The notes under the pieces are model-generated. The model did no database searches. It had not been told where the DNA came from and was given only the letters and a program-made list of their open reading frames with translations. A stretch of 64,000 nt of DNA from Siphonodentalium dalli. Taxonomy: Eukaryota; Mollusca; Scaphopoda; Gadilida; Siphonodentaliidae. Shown here in pieces: positions 18,704 through 49,262 of this stretch. Made by a program: the position numbers and the translations under genes. The stretch's first letter is position 1. Every line of letters starts with the position of its first letter. Location of the stretch: NCBI GenBank assembly GCA_032622095.1, contig CP136067.1, forward strand, positions 200,842,052 to 200,906,051, read 5' to 3'.

Positions 18704-19274
18704 CAGGGTTCGCGCTGCCACTTGCCAAAGGCAAAAATAATTCACATTTGGCAAAAAATATTTTCATTTGGCGAAAGTTTTGGCAGGTCACTTTTTAATT
18801 CAAGCAATTTGAAAAAATATTGGGTCAATCAATACCATTCATTTTAGGAAACTACTACAATAGAATTATATTAGTGGCGGTTCCGTAAACCTTATAAAAG
18901 TTAACACCTATTAAGATGCAGTTAATCTCATAGCATTAGTACTGATGTTGGAGTGATTACTAATCCTCCTGTGATGCGCCCCTCTGCTGAAGCAACCGTT
19001 CTACCATTGTATTGTTCGGTGATTGGCTTTGTTGTTGTATGATAAACCACAATAGAGATGCGAGTATAATTAATTATTAACTAACTGCTTTTCTATCGAT
19101 ATCAAATGTCGTTCAAATCGAAACATAAGACTTAAAGTTGCAGAAAATTATACTATCAGAGATAGCATTTGGCAAATGGATAGCATTTGGCAAATGCTAA
19201 GATAATTTGGCAAAAAATATTTTCATTTGGCAAATTATTTGGCAAAAGTAAAATTCGGTCCAACGTTGACCCTG
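18704..19274. mobile_element. Short hAT element, CAGGGTTCGCGCTG ends (571 bp)
   Basis: The left end is CAGGGTTCGCGCTGCCAC and the right end is its diverged complement, GTTGACCCTG. Flanks ACAATGGG (18696-18703) and GCAATGGG (19275-19282) match at 7 of 8 positions. Subterminal TTTGGCAAA words repeat at both ends. This copy shows the uninterrupted form of the element at 7469. Confidence 0.85.
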
Positions 19275-36172: not shown

Positions 36173-38005
36173 TTACAATGGACGTGACACGGGTTGCTGT
36201 ACGCCATTCCTGATCATTGTGCTGAGAACGTACAGGAACTTGGCAGAATATAGTACTAGTTCCTTGAGGCAGTGGGATATGTGTTCTGTTAGAGTTTCCA
36301 GAGAACTTCCGAGGAGGGTTGCTACCAAGTCATCTTTGGCTAACGACGTAAGGTAAAAATATTCGGGTATGCCGCAACGAGAGATAATCACTTCCCAAAA
36401 AGAGTTTCTGATGATGAAAGCGGCCAGAGAAGAGCATACGAACAGGACGTGGTCGATTTCGTTCGAGTATATACACTTCGCTGCAGAGATGACACACTAA
36501 ATTGTTGGCAGAAGTTGTCCTGTTGAGAAGCAGTACTAAGTTTTCGAGATATTTCGACATGTAAGCGTTTCTACGGAGAAGTTTCCAGACTGTCCAGTTT
36601 GATTGGGGATTATAGGGTGAACGTTCCACAGAATTCACAAGGATGGATCGGACGAAACGTGGGTCTGCCACGAGGAAATGAACGTTCCCCTGACAGCTGT
36701 CTTCAAAAGAGTTATCCACGTTGACAGTTTTGGGAAGACCCCATGGTACAGGTAGTCGATCAAATAGTCAAAAAGATCGTATTTGGCTAATATGGAGAAC
36801 ATTTCCTGGACAAAAACCACTGGAGCGATATTATAGTATGTACATGTGTGCTTTCAGGAGAAACAGTCGTAATGGTAATTGATGGTCGAACGATTGATGG
36901 ATAAAACGTCACAGGAAGCAAAGTTTTTTTTATATGCAGTTGATATTCAATTGGTAGAAATCCAAGAAGACCTAGCGATAGCCTAGTTGACGCTCGTTTT
37001 GGGAGGGATTATGCGTATTTGAGGCATGTTCTGGCGGCTTTGTTCATAATGGTGATGGCGGAACTTTGATCAAAAGGAACCACCTCGACACCGTAAAGAG
37101 ATCTCGGTAGAACAACAGTTTTGAGGACATTTGTCATGGTGATTGGTGCAGTGGATTTCATAAGTTTGTTACCCATGATATTGAAAAAGTTATTCCTCAT
37201 TTTTGTCGACACAGACGAGGCGGGGTTGACCTGCTTCGCAAACTTGTCCTGAATTAAACCAAGATGGGCACATTCTGTAACTTCCTGAATAGTTTGATTG
37301 CCCAACCTCCATATCCTTCCCGAGCGGTCATATTATTTTTTATTCTCGTTGAATACAACGATTTTGCTCTTCGTGGAGGAGAATTCGAATCGCCACCGCC
37401 TACTATATTGCACACATAATTATGTTCAACAAGGAGTCGAGACCGGATTCGATAGCGACAGAAGGGCGATGTCGTCGGCAGTAGTAGGAGCGCCACATGG
37501 GATATTACTGATTCTTAGTTCGTATGGAGAAGTTGCTAGATCGTTAAGTAGGTCGTCTATGAAGACGAGATAGCAGAGAGGCGACAGAATGCCACCTTGT
37601 CCAGTAGATTGCAGTATTTTGAAACTTTGCGACATGCGGCCGTCATATAGTACTTTGCTAGTCACATCCGAATGGATTTTCTCCAACAAACAGACAAGGT
37701 GTGGCGAAAATCCGAGCTGAATGAATTTGTATAGGAGGCCAGTGTGCCATACTTTATCAAAAGCTTTCTTGGAGTCAAGGAAGGCAACATATAAATTGGA
37801 GTTATTGTCTTTGGCATATGATACAGATTCCGTGAGCATGAATGACGTCATCGAACAGCTGATACCTTTCTGAAAACCCATCTGTTGTGCATTCGGAAAT
37901 CGTTTCATTTGGTGACTTTGAAGAAGGCGAGTCAACAGCATGGACTCTAATAGTTTGTATAGGACCGATAGAAGTGTTATAGCACGGTAACTATCAGGAG
38001 AAGTA
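36173..38005 (-). pseudogene. LINE reverse transcriptase, C-terminal half
   Basis: Minus-strand non-LTR retrotransposon coding region. It starts SPDSYRAITLLSVLYKLLES, the entry of the polymerase domain. Motif A follows (AFLDSKKAFDKVWH), then GQGGILSPL and the active-site motif, here TADDIALL where YADD is usual. After frame changes near 37440 and 37250 it continues with a connection region (AARTCLKYA) and a C-terminal Cys-rich motif, CHLCSEVY, near 36480. Stops and frameshifts between 36820 and 37010 show it is dead. The reading breaks at 38005, where the 10.5-kb insertion begins; the upstream part of the protein is at 48520-49020. Confidence 0.93.
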
Positions 38006-38399
38006 CAGTACAAAGCCCGTGGTTTTTTCAAAACCACGCGTGGCCAACATTTTAACACGGAAAAAACACGGTAAAATCGCGCGTGGTCTTAGCGTGGTCA
38101 ACTTCAGAAAAATGACCAGCGTGTTCAAACACGGCGTGTACATGCCGTGGTCATCCGAGTTCACGCCGTGGTCATCCGTGTTGAAGTCGTGTTCTTAGCG
38201 TGATCAATTTCGGCAAAATGGCCAGCGTGTTCAAAAACGGTCTGAACACGGCGTGTACATGCCGTGGTCATCTGAGTGCACGCCGTGGTCATCCGTGTTG
38301 AAGTCATGTTCATGCCGTGTTAATAGCGTGGTCAGTCGTGTTTACGGCGTGGTCTGCATCCCAGTCAGGGACAGTGCGGGAGGTGTGAATAATCCGCGA

Positions 38400-41290
38400 C
38401 ATCAAAGAGTTGCCGCAGTATTACTTGCGGTAGGATTTTTTCGGGTATATTTGGCCCGGATTGATTTCGTCAATGAATAAAGAATTGTCAGATAAAATCT
38501 TTTATAATAAAAAACAATTTCATATATTGAATTATATATATATATATGCATATTTGTTAATCCGTGTCAATGGCCTTTATATCCGTGTCATGTTTTGTTG
38601 TCGCATTTTATTTTAGTTGGCATTAATATTTTCTTGTGTTTCCCGGCCATAGCTAACAGACAGACAAACAAACAGAAGTCCCAAACTATATATTAGATCA
38701 TTTGTGGGTACCTGTTTCAAGGTGAAGGTCACCTCGGGCGGAAAAACTGACCCGATGAAAATCTCCCCAATTTCCCAGGAACCCCTAAGTACGAACACAG
38801 ACTTAAGAATCACACAACACGCTCATGTCTGTACACAGGCACAGCACGCTCATGTCTGGACACATACACGCTCTTTATCAACGACACTGCGGATACGAAC
38901 GCTCTTTAACTATCACGCAATTAACCCATGAATTCCCATTGCGGTGGCGGGGGGTTGGAGAATGAGTGCTCTGACGTTCTCAGAAGCGGTCCGATGACCA
39001 TTCCCGCGGTTTTTACCCTCAGATAGCAAGTTTGGGCTAAATCCGCCCGGCAGTTTTCCCGGCCATAGCTAACAGACAAACAACAAACAAACAAACAGAA
39101 GTCCTAAAATATAAAGTAGATTAAATGCAGATATTCTCGAATGTGAAACCGGTTTCGTTAGTTTACCGTAGACAGTTGCGTCCCGAATTGAGAAGTAATT
39201 AATTACAATTGAGCTTAGTTTAGACGGTACTTTTGATTTGTTTGAGATTTTCGGCGATGCTACATTTCCCCAGTTGGCATAGCACCTGAATACTGACTTA
39301 TCAGGTTATACGCAACAGAACAAGTCCATAATATAAGTTAGCCTGTGCCACCGCTAACAAGATATCATATTTGTAGTTTGAGATCGGTTATCATTGCTTT
39401 AACAGTGATCTAGAACATTCTTAACCATGCTAAATGAACAATAACTCTTAAAATGACTTAAATGTTCTGCAGTTTCGTCAAAGGTCACAATATTGAAAAT
39501 AAAATAAAAGTTACCTAATTATGAATTTTATCAAGAATATACTAAAAGTATAGTATAATGATAATATGAAAGTGATATTACCCACAAAACACTTTGTGTG
39601 AACCGAGAATTTAATTCAACGCAGAAGTCTTGTTAAAGTAAACTTATCGGGGACTCCTCTGTGTTGAGTGCTTTGCGTATAGCACACTTTACTCACTCTA
39701 CTGTATCATAATATGGATTTTTGTTTATTAACAAACCGTACGGTCTTGACAATAACATGCTATTTATGATTTTACACAATATGTCTATAAATTTATATTC
39801 GTTCTGTTTATGGCGGTCTTAACCGATGCCACATTTTAAAAGAGCAACACCCATCGCGATGACAATACTTATATTTAAGTGTCAATCGTATATACCACAC
39901 TATAACAGGTTGCTGAACGTTCTAGCATTCCATGAAGCAACAAAGAGGTGAGGTCGGTACAACCAATCTAGATCTATATTAAGTTCATTCGTTGTGTGTT
40001 CTTAGTGTTTCAGCCATGTGTATTGGCTACTATGCAAACTGAATCTATAGAAGGTGTTAAAGATAACGTACCGTTTGATGCGTTTCATTTCAGACTGAAG
40101 TGGCACCACGCCATTAAAAACCCATATCGATAAATATTTAATGCATGCACTGATCGAGACAAAAGGACAAAATTTCACGCTCGGAGTTCAGCCATTGTCT
40201 TGTTGTCGCATATGACGTCGGTGATAGCCTATATTTTTGTAGTTCATCAATAGATGGATGGATCGATAAATGCCACTCAAAAAGACGACAATTTCCCCGT
40301 CAATTAAATGACCCGATATATCAACCAGCAATTAACACGTTCTTCAAGTAACCTTCAAGTAATGATTAGTGTCGATTAGTGAAATACCATTGTCTTTTAA
40401 CATCTATCGGATTCGTTTTACCGTGAAAGAACTATAGTTTGAAAGGGAATAAAGGTAATCGAAATGATGATTCGGGATCGTTTTGCAGACAACTATTGTT
40501 TTCGGTATGTTGTGGTTCTATCTTACCACACAACAAAAAAAACTCCTGGCATGTGGTAGAAAACTAAGAGAAGTTATATTGAGCACTACAGCTACCCGGA
40601 TATCGAATTAGTTCATCGCAAAAAAAGTTGTATGAGGGTTAATTATTGCAAGCAGATACTGTCTATACGGTTTAAATATGATATGGTGTCGGCTTCGAAC
40701 ATATTTTACATCCATATTGTTCCATGTGGCAAGAAGACTTATATACAAAGAATGATTCAGACATTGTCAATATTGAAATAGAACAAGATGGTACTAAAAA
40801 ATTATGTCCACATGCGTTATTGACCACTATGGTTCCGGTCCCCAATGTGCACGAAAGCAGATGGAACATGTCAGTTCTTAACACACCTCGCTTTCGCGTA
40901 CTTCGGACAATAAATAACTGTGGTTTACGGTATTATTGTTCGATATATCGCTTCGGTGTTGCGATCATCCTGTAGAGAATTTAATTCCGGTTCCAACAGT
41001 ACCCCAACGGACTATTCGTATCCGAATCCGGGAATGATCTGATCTAAACATCAACATCTATAACCTAGTTCCACGCGACTCAGTTTACATTTTTTGTATT
41101 AAATAAGCATTACTTTATAAGAAGAAAAATCCTGACCCGGGCATAATCTGTACCTTTAAATATTATCAGTAAATACGTGGAAATTAAGTCGGTTCCGCAC
41201 ATGGTGTGTACCTTTAAATGCGATAATTATTCCGTGAAATCAATCCAACAGCCTAGTATAACGTCTCAAAATCAACTTATAACTTTGTTC
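38400..41290. other. Interior of the giant insertion, left part: no gene recognised
   Basis: Contains a direct repeat (CCCGGCCATAGCTAACAGAC at about 38640 and 39058), an S1 repeat in reverse (39160-39340) and AT-rich sequence. An 83-codon open frame at 40724-40975 (starts MWQEDLYTKND) has no recognisable domain. Confidence 0.5.
39160..39340 (-). repeat. Interspersed repeat S1 (copy 4, reverse)
   Basis: Minus strand: ATGGACTTGTTCTGTTGCGT, CCAACTGGGGAAATGTAGCA and GCTCAATTGTAATTAATTAC in S1 order, diverged. Confidence 0.7.
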
Positions 41291-41300
41291 CACGTGACAT

Positions 41301-42267
41301 CAGTGTTCGCGCTGGACCGAAACAAACTTTAGCCAAAAGTTTAGCCAAATGAAAATTTTATTAGCCAAATGAAAAAAACTTTAGCCAAATGTTTTTTAGC
41401 CAAATTAAAAAAAAATATGGCCAAATTAAATCATCGTTTTCTGGTCGGTTCACAATTAATGACTAAAACGTCAAATCTAACAGGCACAGGTAAAATACAC
41501 AATAATTTAACTAATTTTGATGAACTAGAAATATTTGTTTATCTATCATTTATTAAAAATTTATCAATCTTTATGTGAAAGAGTGATTGGGGGGGGGGGG
41601 GTTAACCCGGGATTGTCCTTCTTATAATGTCATTAATTTTTTTTTTTATATCAATATCTTTTTTAAAATCATTAAATGTTAATTATCCTTGCGAAAATAT
41701 TTAAGTGACATCTGGAAACTAATAACTTAATATTGTTACGCCATTATCAAATTGCAATCTGTCATAAAAGCATGCATATTATTTTGAATGTATCGGTATT
41801 GACGACAAATAGCCACAAAATATCTGTCGTGATTCACATTTGGCTGATTAAGCTATTGTCTTACACTTGGTGCTCATAAACCTTGGCCGTCATAAATACA
41901 ATGTCATCATAAACATGCATTGTGCAGGAGTCCCGTGAGTGACCAGACAGACAATGGGGGATTAGCGGATTAAATGTAAAATAATGATTTTTTTGCTGTT
42001 TCGTGCAGAGTGACGGGTTTCCCTTTGTACTGTCCGCGATCGGGTTTCCCTTTGTACAGTCGGCGATATATTCCCACTTACGATGTTTTCGGACTAGATC
42101 GTTCACATCACAAAATTGAAAACCCACTTGCCAAAAATTCATGCTTTCAGTCTCCATTTGGGGTCAAAAAATGTTTAGCCAAAAGTTTAGCCAAATGAAA
42201 TTTTTATTAGCCAAATTCAAAAAAGATTAGCCATTGGCTAATTTGGCTACCGACAGCGCGAACACTG
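41301..42267. mobile_element. hAT element with perfect 8-bp target duplication, CAGTGTTCGCGCTG ends (967 bp)
   Basis: CGTGACAT is duplicated at 41293-41300 and 42268-42275. The ends CAGTGTTCGCGCTG / CAGCGCGAACACTG are perfect inverted copies. TTAGCCAAA words repeat just inside both ends. These termini are close to those at 7469 and 18704, so the three form one related group. No transposase frame. It lies within the giant insertion. Confidence 0.95.
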
Positions 42268-42679
42268 CGTGACATTTAATATATCAAAATGACGATAATT
42301 TATATAGAAAAAAAAGAGAGAGAAAAAAAAACCGGATCCGGACATGATATCTACCTTTAAATATGATCAATAATTACGAGATAATTAATTCGGATCCGGA
42401 TATGGTGTGTTCCCTTAAATGCCATCATGGTCACGTAAAATCAATCCAACCACCGTGTCTATATGAAAATATAAGAAGTATGCTGATCCGGGCACGATAT
42501 GCACCTTTAAATACGATTAATCGGGTTTTAATGAGCACGACAGCCCTATTTTGGTTTAATCTCACCTCCTAACCAGTTTCCGCGTGTCAAACGGCTTTTA
42601 ATGGGTTAAATGTGTGATAAAACAAGCATGAAATTCATACCCGGGATCCGGAATCCGGTAAAAAGACACACCCATGTTA

Positions 42680-44120
42680 TGGTCATCAATAACAGTAAAT
42701 ACCCTAAATGTCCCGTCAAGATATTTTCGATCTAACAACAGGAAGATGTAAATCTACAAGATTCAATAAATATATATAGTCATATGTTCCTGTCAAAATA
42801 TTCGATTTATTTAGTATTAAGTTAGCAATCTTCTTGAAATAATGCACGTGTATCGGTACCATTGCGACTCCCATATATAAGTTATTTTTATGAATAATCG
42901 CGGTGTGGTGGTATCTTTACTTTTTCTGGGCCAATTTTCACAATCGACGGGTTGAATTTCGATGAAATTTCCGTTAAATAAAATGTTGCTGCTCATTTGC
43001 CAATTTTAGCAGCAATTTCGAGAATATAATTTGGACTATGGAGGTGATAATTAATTACGTAACGCACACACCACGAGCTCCTCTTCCAATATAAATATAT
43101 ATTTCATTGTACGCGAGGGTGGTTTTGATGCCACATACCCAATGGACAGGCGGGGAACAATCCCCTTCTTGGTACGACCGAACCTGACATCGAATGAGTT
43201 AATTTAGTGCAAATGTCCATATCTCATATAAAAAAAATCGACGGTTTCCTTTTCACTGACTTCACCCATCGCCGCTTTTTGAAACGCATAGCAGGAAATG
43301 GCACCCTTTTGATAATCTCTAGACAATGGCTTGATTAGCCCATTGTCTCATTTTTGTCCGTCCGTTATTAATTTCCGGGTGCCTGAGGAATATATAATAA
43401 CAGTGATAACTGAACAGGGCTACATGCATTGCATGATTTGTACAAAACATAGACTCCACGTCCTACGCCCATACATACTTGATGCATTGTATATCGGAGA
43501 GACAATTTCACACAGTTTACGGATATGGGACATCGGTTACAGAGTACAGTTTCTAATCGGGGGATACGGACGATTGCACAACAGAGATAACAAGTGGAGA
43601 ATTTGTTTTGTACAGGGCCAGTATGGCCAGGATTGGTCGTATTCCTACTGATCTTGTTTTACTTACCATTATAGTTGTATTGATGTGTATAACTTTCCAA
43701 AAAATAAAATTTAATTTTAGTCTCTTTATTGAATTTACCAGGACTATTTCATTTGCATTGGTGAAAAATCATTTTAAAATTTTTTAATTTAAATTAAAAA
43801 AACTAAATTTTGCAATACCACACTAAGCCCCAAAACTAACCTTATCTACACTATTTGTCTAATTGTACTTAATTTAGCTGACCTCTTTGTTTTCGATGGT
43901 GTCTGCAAAACACTGGTGTTTCATAATCAGCTGACCAACTAATCACTGGCCACTGTGTTTTAAAAGTTGAAACTTGAATTGACCCATACGTTAATTAATT
44001 TCAATAAAGTATATCAAAATAAATATTATCGTAAAACTTATGGGAGGGCACTTGACATGAGGTCGAATGTACACACGCAGGTTAGGGTGCATTTACATTG
44101 CTACATAAATGTACACAGAT
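42680..44120 (+). repeat. Segmental copy A within the giant insertion
   Basis: Shares AAATAATGCACGTGTATCGG, GGTTGAATTTCGATGAAATT, GGAGGTGATAATTAATTACG, then GCTTTTTGAAACGCATAGCA through to GGTTAGGGTGCATTTACATT with copy B, in the same order. It has a 278-bp block at 43311-43588 that is absent from copy B. Its first 150 bp match copy C. Confidence 0.9.
43311..43588 (+). other. 278-bp insertion/deletion block in copy A, with a possible GIY-YIG-like peptide
   Basis: Copy B reads straight from CACCCTTTT to AACAAGTGG; copy A has 278 bp between. It contains part of a 106-codon open frame including CMICTKHRL and ALYIGETISHSLRI. LYIGET is the kind of motif seen in GIY-YIG-like endonuclease domains of retroelements (C..C....LYIGET..LR.R). 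The rest of the domain is not convincing and the likeness is short. Confidence 0.35.
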
Positions 44121-45069
44121 CTACATGTCGCCCTCTGCACATTCGAACAATGAGTCTACCAAGCTCTACCAGCGACGTTCGATCTCTCAAGGATGTATCT
44201 ACCTGTGAATGTCTTGTCAGTGTTGATCTTTACTCAACACGCAGTGTTATATTTTACATGTTAAGACACAAGTCCACTTGATAACTTAATGAATAACCCA
44301 TCTCAACAGCCATGATTGTTCTTACTAATGAAATTAATATAAGTAGATAAACATGCATGCATTGAGATCATATAAAAAAAACTTACCACAATAATGATAT
44401 GTGAGTCAATGAGGATTTACAACCAGGCCACGGTCAAACACAATTCTGGACGATATATCGTGCAATTATATATAGCATCGTGAATACAATTTAGCAAAAC
44501 TTAATGAGTAGATATCAACCTTTGCGAAAAGCAATGGTCAATTGGCCCAGTCGACTCATTGTGAGGAAAATCAGCGGGCGACATGCATGGATAGCTATGG
44601 CACAGAATTATGACGAACCAATTGTCACAAAATTCCACCATCACAAATTGTCACACCTACTATGCCATCGCTACTGTGGTACGTGTGTCCGCAGCCAATA
44701 CATCGACATCTGTAATGTTCTTTCTGAGTATGGTCGATCGTTTTACTAAACATCGTTTCGATTGAACCGGATACATTCATCGGACTCTTTCTCGTGTTAT
44801 ATTGGACCGTGACATGTTTGTCATTGTCTTCAATGTATCTTATCACATATCAATAGTATTGACGTGATCAGGCACTGAAAACTAAGGAATGGAAACAAAT
44901 GTTTTTTAATAACTTTGGTTATATGGATATTCGCATTTCAATTAACACGCGCTGAACACCCGCGTCTATAACAAAACGAGGAAGGTTACTGAAGTGCGAA
45001 CCGTTCATTTATGCCATAGCGCTCAAGTACTTCGTTAGTATGTCATATTTTTGATGCCCCGAGACGATA

Positions 45070-45262
45070 CCGTTAAAGACATATTATGGACAACTTTCGG
45101 GGGCGTTAAACTGATAAGTTAGCATTCAGGTGCTATGTCAACTGGATGAATGTAACATTATACTAACATCACCGAAAATCTGAATCAAATCGACCGTAAC
45201 ACTACATAGAAAACATCGTCTGAACTACGCTCAATTGTAAATATTTACATCTCGGTACCATA
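45070..45262 (+). repeat. Interspersed repeat S1 (copy 5)
   Basis: From AAAGACATATTATGGACAAC to GCTCAATTGTAAATATTTAC in full S1 order. It abuts the start of segmental copy B. Confidence 0.8.
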
Positions 45263-45264
45263 TA

Positions 45265-46350
45265 TTCGATTTATTTAGTATTAAGTTAGCACCCTTCTTG
45301 AAATAATGAACGTGTATCGGTACCATTCCGACTCCCATATATAAGTTATTTTTTATGAATAATCGCGGTGTGGTGGTGTCTTTACTTTTTCTGGGCCAAT
45401 TTTCACAATCGACGGGTTGAATTTCGATGAAATTTCCGTTAAATAAAATGTTGCTGCTCATTTGCCATTTGAGCAGCAATTTCGAGAATATAATTTGGAC
45501 TATGGAGGTGATAATTAATTACGTAACGCACACACCACGAGCTCCTCCTCCAATATAAATATATATTTCATTGTAAGCGCGGGTGGTTGTGATGCCACAT
45601 ACCCAATGCACAGGCGGGGAACAATCCTCTTCTTGGTACGACCGAACCTGACATCGAATGAGTTAATTTAGTACAAATGTCCATATCTCATATAAAAAAA
45701 ATCGGCGGTTTCCTTTTCGCTGACTTCACCCATCGCCGCTTTTTGAAACGCATAGCAGGAAATGGCACCCTTTTAACAAGTGGAGAATTTGTTTTGTACA
45801 GGGCCAGTATGGCCAGGATTGGTCGTCTTCCTACTGATCTTGTTTTACTTACCGTTATAGTTGTATTGATGTATATAACTTTCCAAAAAATAAAATTTAA
45901 TTTTAGTCTCTTTTTTGAATTTCCAGGACTATTTCATTTGCATTGGTGAAAAATCATTTAAAAAAATTTAAATTTAAATTAAAAAAACTAAATTTTGCAA
46001 TACCACACTAAGCCACAATACGAACCTTATCTACACTATTTGTCTAATTGTACTTAATTTAGCTGACCTCTTTGTTTTCGATGGTGTCTGCATGGTGTTA
46101 TATCATAATGCTATGAAGAAGCCAATGTGTTTTCAAAACACTGGTGTTTCATAATCAGCTGACCAACTAATCACTGGCCACTGTGTTTTAAAAGTTGAAA
46201 CTTGAATTGACCCATACGTTAATTAATTTCAATAAAGTATATAAAAATAAATATTATCGTAAAACTTATGGGAGGGCACTTGACATTAGGTCGAATGTAC
46301 ACACGCAGGTTAGGGTGCATTTACATTGCTATAGAAATGTACACAGATCT
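45265..46350 (+). repeat. Segmental copy B within the giant insertion
   Basis: Closely matches copy A from ATTCGATTTATTTAGTATTA onward, lacking the 278-bp block and having a short extra segment near 46095-46135. By eye it differs from copy A by a few percent. Confidence 0.9.
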
Positions 46351-47296
46351 ACACGCAGACTAGTGTAAACAGGTTGATATAGAAATTCCCACAGAAAGAA
46401 AACGGTATTAGTTCGTGTGAGCAAAAATCGTGTCCGCTAACGTCACGGTAAACGCCGAAGCATTGCGACAGGCAAATCAGTTTTGATTAATTGTTACTCG
46501 GGCTTGGCGAATGTTTTCGTTGTCATTTCAACCCGTGTATTTCGAATATTGAACACGGACAGGGACGTGGCAACTTGTTCAACGGTTGGAAATTTCATAC
46601 CTTACACAACATTAGTTGTAATTTCCAAACCAACAATAGATTGAAAATGATCTTGTAGTTTGATTTTCAAACATTTTATTTGGGGGGGGGGGGGGGGGGT
46701 ATTGTTTTCGGACCAATATTTGCATAATTTCCTACTTTTTATCAAAATTTTGGGCTGGAATGGCCATCAGCTGGAAATTTTCCAACCTTATCATAGGGGC
46801 GGGTGTCATGTTGAAAATGTCCAACACTTGGAAAGATTGCGTCCTGGTCCCTCCCCGTGGCCAGTCATCATCATCATATTTATTGTCTAACAGCTATATA
46901 TAAAAACTGCATGTAATTTAAGAAAACAATATTGTCCTAAATTGGTCAACATTGTCATTGGAATTGTCATCAGTTGGAAATTTTACTACATTTGGTCAAA
47001 TAAAGGGTGTTGTAGGGTAACTGCATGATTTTCATTCTTTCTTCGAACCATTATCAAGTGGTATAAGGGTACACTTTAAATACATGCGGCACATACCAAA
47101 TCGCTGTTATCTGCTGATAGTTGATACATGTTTATGTCTGGCATAAACTGACACGACTCGCAGTGAATTGTCAATTACCAGAGTACTGATCAGCGAGCGT
47201 TCAATATTAGTAATCATGTTGTGATCACAGTAATGCGCGACACGTGACTTCATACAGATCTGTATACATTTCTACAGCAGTATAAACGCAGCCTTA
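46308..47296. mobile_element. Possible inverted-repeat element with about 40-bp imperfect ends
   Basis: The left end TTAGGGTGCATTTACATTGC and the complement of the right end, TAAGGCTGCGTTTATACTGC, agree and continue through a shared GTAGAAATGTA-ACAGATCT-type stretch. No target duplication was found. It contains a G homopolymer near 46682-46699. Confidence 0.5.
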
Positions 47297-48150
47297 TGGT
47301 CATCAATAACAGTAAATACCCTAACCCCACCCACATCATGTAGGTTAACAAAACTGACAATAAATAAGTTTCCGTGGACATAATTGCCATGCTTGAAACG
47401 ACCGATTATCAGTTTGAATATTTTAGTCGTTTAATATATATAAAACATAATAAGATATTTCTGTAAACAAAATATTGCAGTAAAATCAAATTTAAAATAG
47501 GGACATTTTGAGCTGAAACCCTCTGCGCTGTTTACGGATATCGATTATAATAATTAGCAAAACGAAGCCATCCATCCATCGAAATAGTTTCTATGAAGCG
47601 AATTATATCAGGTCAGAATATATTATTATTTTAATACATATTAAATATTCATATGTTCGTGTAAATATATTGGAGAAAGGTTCTAATCCGACACAACGTT
47701 CGAAGGTTTGTTTAAAACTAAACGGACATTGATACCAGACAAATTCTAAATTGAAACTAAATTGAACATTTATCAAAGGTCCCGTCAAGATATTTTCGAT
47801 CTAACAACAGGAAGATGTAAATCTATAAGATTCAATAAATATATATAGTCATATGTTCCTGTCAAAATATTAGAGTTTAGTATTAAGTTAGCACCCTTCT
47901 TGAAATAATGCATGTGTATCGGTACCATTCCGACTCCCTCCGACTCCCATATATTAGTTATTTTTTATGAGTAATCGCGGTATATTGGTAGCTTTACTTT
48001 CTCTTGGCCAATTTTTACAATCGACGGGTTGAATTTCGATAAAATTTCGGTTAAATAAAATGATGCTGCTCATTTGCCAATTTGAGCAGCAATTTCGAGA
48101 ATATATTTTGGACTAGGGAGGTGATAATTAATTACGTAACGGACACCGCG
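47297..48150 (+). repeat. Segmental copy C within the giant insertion
   Basis: Begins ATGGTCATCAATAACAGTAA as in copy A. It is interrupted at about 47324-47778 by unrelated sequence, then resumes GTCCCGTCAAGATATTTTCG and continues to GGTGATAATTAATTACGTAA. The remainder of copy A is absent. Confidence 0.85.
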
Positions 48151-48521
48151 AGCTCTGCCACCGCGGCTTGCCAAGCTCCGGCCGCCAGCGATGTTTCCGT
48201 GTTCAGCCATGTTCCTCCGTGTTCATGTCGCGGTCACCTGTGGTATGGCCGTGGTCACCCGTGGTCATAGCGTGGATTTCCGTGTTCAAACGTGATCATT
48301 TGGCCGTGGTCACCCGTTCGTCGTACCGTGATCATAGCGTGGATGTTCCGTGTTCAAACGTGATCAGAGCGTGTTCAAACGTGATCAGAGCGTGTTCAAA
48401 ATCTGAACACGATTGAACACGTTTACCCAGACCGTGTTCTTGGCGAGTTTAGATTTTGAACACGGAAAAATCGCGCGGGGTCTTCCGTGGACATGTAAAA
48501 AACCACGGGCCTTGTACTGTA

Positions 48522-49020
48522 CATGTAGGTGGTTTAGGCGGTACTTTGTATAACAGAATGACTATTCCTTCTTTCATCGTTGGTGGGATCCACCCCATGC
48601 GGAATATACCGTCATATAGTCTTTTGATGCATTCTATGAATTAAGGAAGTCGGAGCGTGCAACAAATGTTCATTCGATAAGTTATCTGCTCCACCCGCTT
48701 TGTTCTTTTTCAGTTCCTCACATGAAGAACGATTTCGGTGAGCTCGACTGGTTGACATTGCGGGCAGTTCGGTTGCACGGGATCTTTAGCAAGGGGAACA
48801 TAGCTATCAACTTCTCTGGTAACGTGGTCCTCAAACTCAGAGGCTTAGAATGGGGTGGTGGATTGAACAATTCTCTGAAGTACTCAGACCAGCCAGAAAG
48901 TGTTTCATCCGCGTCACGTGTCAGAGACCCGTTGACTTCCATAACCGATCCGATTTGAGAGACACGCGAACGGTTTTGGTTGATAGACCGCCAGAAGGAC
49001 GTTTGGTTGGAGGCAGAGTC
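48522..49020 (-). pseudogene. LINE protein, region before the polymerase motifs (upstream part of split LINE)
   Basis: On the minus strand it encodes SASNQTSFWRSINQNRSRVS, then VMEVNGSLTRDADETLSGWS and EYFRELFNPP: the linker between endonuclease and polymerase in many LINE ORF2 proteins (FW..IN…G.l..d…..W..YF..L). It then passes through MKEGIVILLYKVPPKPP towards the polymerase. The reading stops at 48522 and resumes at 38005 across the giant insertion. Upstream it is cut by the GC-rich palindrome at 49022. Contains stops; non-functional. Confidence 0.88.
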
Positions 49021-49021
49021 G

Positions 49022-49262
49022 CACTCAAGCGAAAGCGACAAAAAGTGCGCCATTAGTAACGCGTCGAAAGCGCCGAAAGCGCCGAAAGCGAAAAAATGTG
49101 CGCCGTAACGGCGCACTTTTTGTCGCTTTCGGCGCGCCGAAACATGCGCTAATATCGAACATTTTGTCGCTTTCGGTGCGCGCGCCGCGTTACTAATGGC
49201 GCACTTTTTGTCGCTTTCGGCGCTCGCCGAAAGCGCCATTAGCAAGTGGCCCTAATAGGATT
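49022..49262. mobile_element. GC-rich palindromic MITE, GCGAAAGCGACAAAAAGTGC family (about 241 bp)
   Basis: Built of inverted copies of GGCGCACTTTTTGTCGCTTT and CGGCG. There are at least four such arms, alternating in direction, with a central GTGCGCCGTAACGGCGCAC palindrome. It is strongly CpG-rich against an AT-rich background. It sits at the upstream edge of the LINE reading. Exact ends and target duplication are unclear. Confidence 0.75.

Follow-up and report, generated by a model that had tools for sequence, protein, structure and literature searches.

Introduction

Elements of the Tc1/mariner/pogo (IS630) group usually measure 1-3 kb, and miniature inverted-repeat transposable elements (MITEs) are short, under about 0.8 kb. 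Non-autonomous DNA transposons in general are usually short, and movement of the Tc1/mariner type is thought to fall with length. Amongst the other described systems, CACTA/CMC elements combine many short subterminal repeats and large size with a 2-3 bp duplication and CACTA/G termini, hAT elements duplicate 8 bp, and Polinton/Maverick elements have a 6-bp duplication and carry polymerase B and integrase genes. Helitrons have neither terminal inverted repeats (TIRs) nor a target duplication and can form head-to-tail arrays with exactly joined ends. Here we describe an insertion of 10,514 bases at positions 38006-48519 of a 64,000-nucleotide stretch of the Siphonodentalium dalli genome (hereafter the window; C7:200842052-200906051, in an assembly of 2.23 Gb and nine contigs). 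The insertion is probably one copy of a very young, large and apparently gene-less (non-autonomous) TIR DNA transposon family, which is moved in trans and whose ends are sometimes joined to each other. The 9.5-kb unit, its short TIRs, the TA flanks, the CGTG arrays, the lack of coding signal, the near-identical copies and the exact fusions were all computed directly.

The family resembles Tc1/mariner/pogo-type MITEs in its TA duplication, its short TIR beginning with CAG, the lack of any coding sequence found and its many near-identical copies, but differs from them in its length (9.5 kb against under about 1 kb), in the 300-bp phased CGTG arrays at both ends and in its exact fusions. Although TIRs and a target duplication without coding capacity are those of a MITE, the complete forms, at 2.4 to 12.4 kb (19.1 kb with an insertion), are far from MITE size. 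Similarly, the TA duplication is that of the IS630 group, and the 9,520-9,593 bp of nine complete copies bear out the original prediction of a TA-duplicating TIR element of greater length than mariner-group elements normally have. With CACTA/CMC elements the family shares numerous short subterminal repeats, a large size and a 2-3 bp duplication, whereas the termini are CAGTACAARGCC (CAGTACAA) and not CACTA; no Pfam domain was found in the window element, and no genome-wide search for a CMC transposase was made. Head-to-tail arrays with exactly joined ends recall Helitrons, unlike which this family has TIRs and a target duplication. The flanks of the complete copies have TA only, as opposed to the duplications of hAT and Polinton/Maverick elements, and six-frame searches of the window element at E up to 1 returned no Pfam domain of the latter or of any other kind. 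Altogether, the family is a variant of a known TIR transposon type with unusual size, end architecture and recurrent exact fusions. At the level of abstracts, a literature search returned no published description of it.

Insertion site and borders

The element splits a long interspersed nuclear element (LINE) whose reverse transcriptase lies on the minus strand, and the frame of this gene is continuous once the flanks are joined with one TA. The left part of the LINE was recognised by Pfam (RVT_1, 5.2e-23) in a reading that places X at stop codons. The TIRs are inverted with respect to each other and identical at 22 of 23 positions, and a TA lies outside both ends. With up to 3 mismatches allowed, the end pattern occurs twice in the window against a shuffle mean of 0.11, and 1 of 100 shuffles reached two. 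These observations agree with the TA-flanked insertion into a LINE that had been proposed for this locus. The limits 38006-48519 also stand as borders, but the size of the mobile unit had to be corrected to about 9.54 kb, because the 10,514 bases include a MITE of 967 bp that was inserted separately and later, with its own 8-bp duplication.

37324..38005, minus strand: downstream part of the host LINE reverse transcriptase, split by the insertion (RVT_1 5.2e-23)
38004..38005, no strand: left TA target-site copy (flank reading)
38006..38028, plus strand: left TIR, CAGTACAAAGCCCGTGGTTTTTT (end comparison)
48497..48519, minus strand: right TIR, CAGTACAAGGCCCGTGGTTTTTT read inward (end comparison)
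48520..48521, no strand: right TA target-site copy (flank reading)
48522..48640, minus strand: upstream part of the host LINE, continuing the frame once the flanks are joined with a single TA (frame reading)

TA was found at both borders in all 15 elements or arrays for which both outer ends were read. These are the window element, the nine complete fetched copies and five others, one of them an array on C5. Additionally, the upstream LINE part holds inverted low-complexity GCGCCGAAA / AAAGTGCGCC repeats at 49040-49200 of the window, which are possibly another small inserted repeat.

Copies, age and family size

A comparison of the left 495 bp with the genome gave 41 match rows (40 of 525 candidates scored), amongst which 15, including the window, were full length with the best score and 100% identity, 25 reached 95-100%, and one was a 50-bp piece. 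Nine of ten fetched loci were complete, at 9,520-9,593 bp, with TA at both borders and differing 25-bp flanks; the window copy corresponds to 9,539 bp plus the nested 967-bp MITE. When the flanks of the nine complete copies were compared by eye over 25 bp, no 8-bp repeat was seen and only TA was common to them. In an alignment of ten copies, that of the window included, each pair is separated by 3-40 substitutions (0.03-0.42%, indels left uncounted), and against the majority there are 0-84 gap columns. Because any two aligned copies differ by so few substitutions, the burst of the 9.5-kb family is recent, as judged from these substitutions with no mutation rate applied.

Left ends with at most 1 mismatch to a longer left-end pattern number 197 in the genome and the TA-plus-TIR pattern has 222 matches, with none in either control. 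For each end search 100 places were listed (for left ends, 100 of the 197), and 82 of the listed left ends fall on C1-C5. By comparison of the lists by eye, a TA precedes 76 of these 82 left ends, and the other 6 are right-to-left fusions on C3 and C5. The window subfamily, defined by an A at base 9, accounts for 17 of the 82. Comparison by eye of the left-end list with the right ends from an exact-match listing paired 13 of the 17 with an inverted right end 9.1-19.2 kb away, 10 of them at 9.5-9.6 kb. Such a genome search for paired inverted ends had been set beforehand as a test that might refute the original prediction; neither these pairings nor the proposed alignment of complete copies, which yielded the nine near-identical, TA-flanked ones, refuted it.

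Complete relatives with shared ends measure 2,385 bp (L067), 6,104 bp (H) and 12.4 kb (C3:137282642). Their interiors differ, but they have in common a left segment of about 636 bp and, in those whose right end was read, a right segment of 0.5-1 kb. A 19.1-kb copy of the window subfamily at C1:246517896-246537042 (L070, L071) contains about 12.8 kb of inserted DNA with internal tandem repeats. Two left ends in the same orientation lie 8.9 kb apart at C3:272142531 and C3:272151467, with TA before both, and are possibly neighbouring insertions.

End architecture

Both ends of the element carry dense arrays of CGTGGTC-type repeats next to the TIRs, as had been noted in the original prediction.

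38018..38038, plus strand: left terminal hairpin, 9-bp stem and 3-nt loop (fold prediction)
38065..38090, plus strand: 26-bp block, repeated directly at the right end (24/26 identical)
38082..38354, plus strand: left subterminal CGTGGTC/CGTGTTC array, phased near 10.65 bp (motif count, phasing test)
48198..48445, plus strand: right subterminal CGTG array with a phase near 10.8 bp, most of it in the strand orientation of the left array (motif count, phasing test)
48459..48484, plus strand: direct copy of the 26-bp block at 38065-38090 (24/26 identical)

Counts of the motif CGTG[GT]TC on both strands are 12 for the left 350 bp and 13 for the right 340 bp; outside the element, none of 5,279 overlapping stretches of 350 bp held more than one. 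CGTG spacing is 10.65 bp on the left and 10.8 bp on the right, and at each end none of 1000 random placements was as regular; the left-array positions are not all independent, the left end holding a direct repeat of about 0.13 kb. The two arrays run mostly in one and the same strand direction (11 motifs to 1, and 10 to 3). This phasing suggests that many protein molecules may sit on one face of the helix. The left 60-nt end has a predicted fold of -10.9 kcal/mol (z -2.23; equalled or bettered by 5 of 200 shuffles), and that of the right end was not significant (z -0.76, 40 of 200 shuffles).

End-to-end fusions

A search for right ends followed by left ends, with 0-12 bases allowed between them, found 7 junctions at 3 loci, all with a 0-bp spacer and without TA (control, 0). 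Five of these belong to an array at C5:129565584-129601675 (L086-L089), in which six units of a related element stand head to tail, with five left-end spacings of 5,227-5,239 bp and TA only at the outer borders. Sampled unit ends of the array differ by 0-1 in 350 bp, and the last unit, when aligned to H, has a gap of about 4.2 kb that was interpreted as an insertion.

The two remaining junctions are dimers on C3 and C9. The fused right end at C3:189273523 is 95.5% like H and 93.8% like the window family, and that at C9:14496639 is 93.5% like H and 92.9% like the window family. Since copies of the window family otherwise differ by less than 0.5% in substitutions, both right ends belong to another subfamily, which at C9 is not clearly H. 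The left ends joined to them (55 bp read at C3, 49 bp at C9) are identical to the window family and one base off H. Downstream of the junction, the C3 element matches the window family at 98% over the left 495 bp and at 100% over the last 145 bp, and the C9 element at 97.5% over interior bases 2177-2737. A TA follows the outer right end of the C3 dimer, the only outer end of the two dimers that was reached. Simple reinsertion into TA would leave a TA between copies, and the TA-free junctions were therefore probably made by end joining.

Coding content and transposase search

The original prediction had recognised no transposase in the element, and this held in six-frame Pfam searches of the window element, which returned nothing at E up to 1. 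These negatives are meaningful for known domains, because the same reading with X at stops detected the RVT_1 domain of the host LINE. The longest open reading frame (ORF) in a complete copy has 116 codons; in 100 first-order Markov sequences the mean was 125, and 58 of them had one at least as long. A gene inside the 9.5-kb element was rejected on the negative outcome of the six-frame Pfam search and of this ORF null. The 6.1-kb form H, scanned from 1.3 kb inward, gave no Pfam match at E up to 0.1, and Rfam gave 0 matches over the window. Two scanned stretches of the 12.4-kb form (L058 800-4800 and 5383-9961; 8.6 kb) gave four matches below curated cut-offs, to FERM_C1_MyoVII (E 1.7e-4), ZapC_N (0.034), TSTD2_N (0.082) and C2_C2CD3_N (0.12), the first of which lies in a self-repeating stretch and was not used.

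A source of transposase was sought amongst 150 of 415 DDE_1 (pogo), 150 of 191 DDE_3 (Tc1-like) and 150 of 265 hAT-like candidates, which were scored, with distances to the listed left ends taken by eye. The nearest scored DDE_1 or DDE_3 match lies about 37-39 kb from any listed left end. Pogo-like genes are numerous in the genome, and some of them form sets in which the frames are intact and the scores equal. One young-looking family (C3:201062828, C6:133915852, C1:231244793 and others) has intact frames of 486-487 residues and a right end reading TACCGTAAATTTCGGTGTATAAGTCG inward; it was rejected as the partner because this right end, the one that was reached, is different.

A broken hAT-like gene begins 1.7 kb inside the left end of one truncated copy, F (C2:82154742), with weak signals of zf-C17orf113 (E 0.0082) and Dimer_Tnp_hAT (E 2.6e-4), both under curated cut-offs. 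A PDB search with this broken frame gave one match at E 0.68, which was not used. In addition, dozens of short matches cover the N-terminal zinc finger of the hAT-like protein, often as 71-residue frames matching residues 15-69 with near-equal scores, as if a repeated element carried only this piece. Beyond the assembly, a 17-base end had a single match at each of 29 loci in bacterial contigs, taken as chance, and the 23-base end had 0 matches in viral contigs.

Internal structure

Self-comparison of the window confirmed that the internal duplicated segments are real. Relative to H (6.1 kb), the interior of the 9.5-kb form is a mosaic, and parts of its right region are present three times.

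38639..39121 (38639-38698 + 39055-39121), plus strand: interior repeat pair, starting about where relatives diverge (self-comparison, relatives)
41293..41300, no strand: 8-bp duplication CGTGACAT of the nested MITE, left copy (sequence and copy alignment)
41301..42267, no strand: nested 967-bp hAT-like MITE with CAGTGTTCGCGCTG inverted ends, absent from the 9 other complete copies (copy alignment)
42268..42275, no strand: 8-bp duplication CGTGACAT of the nested MITE, right copy (sequence and copy alignment)
42706..43310, plus strand: right-interior segment, first copy (42798-43310 96.7% to 45262-45774; 42706-43080 89.4% to 47775-48155)
45262..46353, plus strand: right-interior segment, second copy, and duplicate of 43588-44125 (89.8%) (self-comparison)
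47775..48155, plus strand: right-interior segment, third copy, adjoining the right subterminal region (self-comparison)

Parts of the nested MITE resemble 18745-18784 and 19167-19265 of the window. Two related segments in inverted orientation, 39110-39334 and 45073-45254, match the window near 21.7, 24.5 and 32.2 kb, and a further small repeat family therefore seems to be nested in the element.

The original prediction had offered two accounts of the locus, a new kind of large element or a MITE of roughly 0.75 kb that grew from inside. These are not exclusive: growth of the interior by insertion and duplication was borne out, but a one-off grown MITE was not, because it was the 9.5-kb form that moved, recently and many times. 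Nor, as no transposase was identified, is a categorically new kind of element established.

Alternative explanations

The first question is whether the locus represents a family at all. A mosaic of duplicated and nested segments is what might be seen if an ordinary small MITE had once formed a composite by chance, or in a segmental duplication; yet many near-identical full-length copies stand at different TA sites, and an explanation of this kind, which we regard as scarcely credible, is refuted by the nine complete young copies with their 3-40 substitutions. Amongst the possible sources of mobility, the hAT-like (C17orf113-type) transposase of copy F as the autonomous partner is very unlikely. 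Its broken gene, with zinc-finger and dimerisation signals, does lie near a left end of the family, but F has no right end within 12 kb, the 149 other matches to its N-terminal part (150 of 265 candidates scored) all lie, as judged by eye, more than about 40 kb from the listed left ends, three of those loci are without the CGTG[GT]TC motif, and the 8-bp duplication of hAT elements is not that of this family; the gene was rejected on these grounds. Membership of Tc1/mariner/pogo, with movement by the genome's own pogo or Tc1-like transposase, is possible, though we consider it doubtful. The TA target, the CAGT... termini, which resemble those of the group, and the many pogo-like genes with intact frames all speak for it. 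However, in the one such pogo family examined, the right end, the only one reached, reads TACCGTAAATTTC inward and not CAGTACAA; amongst the matches listed, comparison by eye placed no scored DDE_1 or DDE_3 gene within a listed element; and neither a size of 9.5 kb nor dense arrays nor exact fusions of ends are usual in the group.

The fusions raise the matter of a circle or rolling-circle route, by which an exactly joined circle would form multimers that insert into TA through their outer ends. Six C5 units with zero-spacer junctions and one outer pair of TAs are consistent with it, as are the nearly invariant unit ends of that array and the same junction at two further loci. The C3 and C9 junctions, however, unite two subfamilies and are not accounted for by a circle of one element; fusions were found at only 3 loci in a family with 197 left ends, and the array could also have grown from one fusion by repeated unequal exchange. 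We therefore think this route unlikely. A wider proposal, a TA-duplicating TIR lineage that efficiently moves very large gene-less DNA (at least 9.5 kb) via phased arrays and at times passes through an end-joined circular or multimeric stage inserting as a multimer, is about equally improbable. Ends of two copies can be used together in alternative transposition, a source of tandem structures in maize Ac/Ds and Drosophila P elements (PMC3744419); in the process described there the paired ends insert at a target, whereas in this family ends are joined without target DNA between them.

Several observations weigh against a large, gene-less family moved in trans, the reading that we prefer. No transposase has been tied to these ends, and a spliced gene without a Pfam model would escape the Pfam search; the sole copy with a hAT-like gene has no right end within 12 kb. 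The tenth fetched copy (C7:128322745) retains only its first 2,129 bp, and 4 of the 17 listed window-subfamily left ends have no exact right end nearby. Lastly, the 2-bp duplication is deduced from the restored LINE frame and the TA-free fusions, no second LINE copy having shown the empty site.

Mechanism and significance

Under the preferred reading of a family moved in trans, a transposase made elsewhere would bind the helically phased arrays as a cooperative platform, cut exactly at the boundary between element and TA, and paste the element into another TA. At times, the right end of one copy would be ligated to the left end of another, which may have produced the fused dimers and, once, the six-unit array. 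The interior would then be passenger DNA built by nested insertions and duplications.

A gene-less element of 9.5 kb with many near-identical copies points to an end structure and a transposase that tolerate long cargo, which is of interest for transposon biology and for large-insert vectors. In addition, the TA-free fusions pose a testable question, namely whether they arise by blunt cutting and joining of the ends of two copies or from circles.

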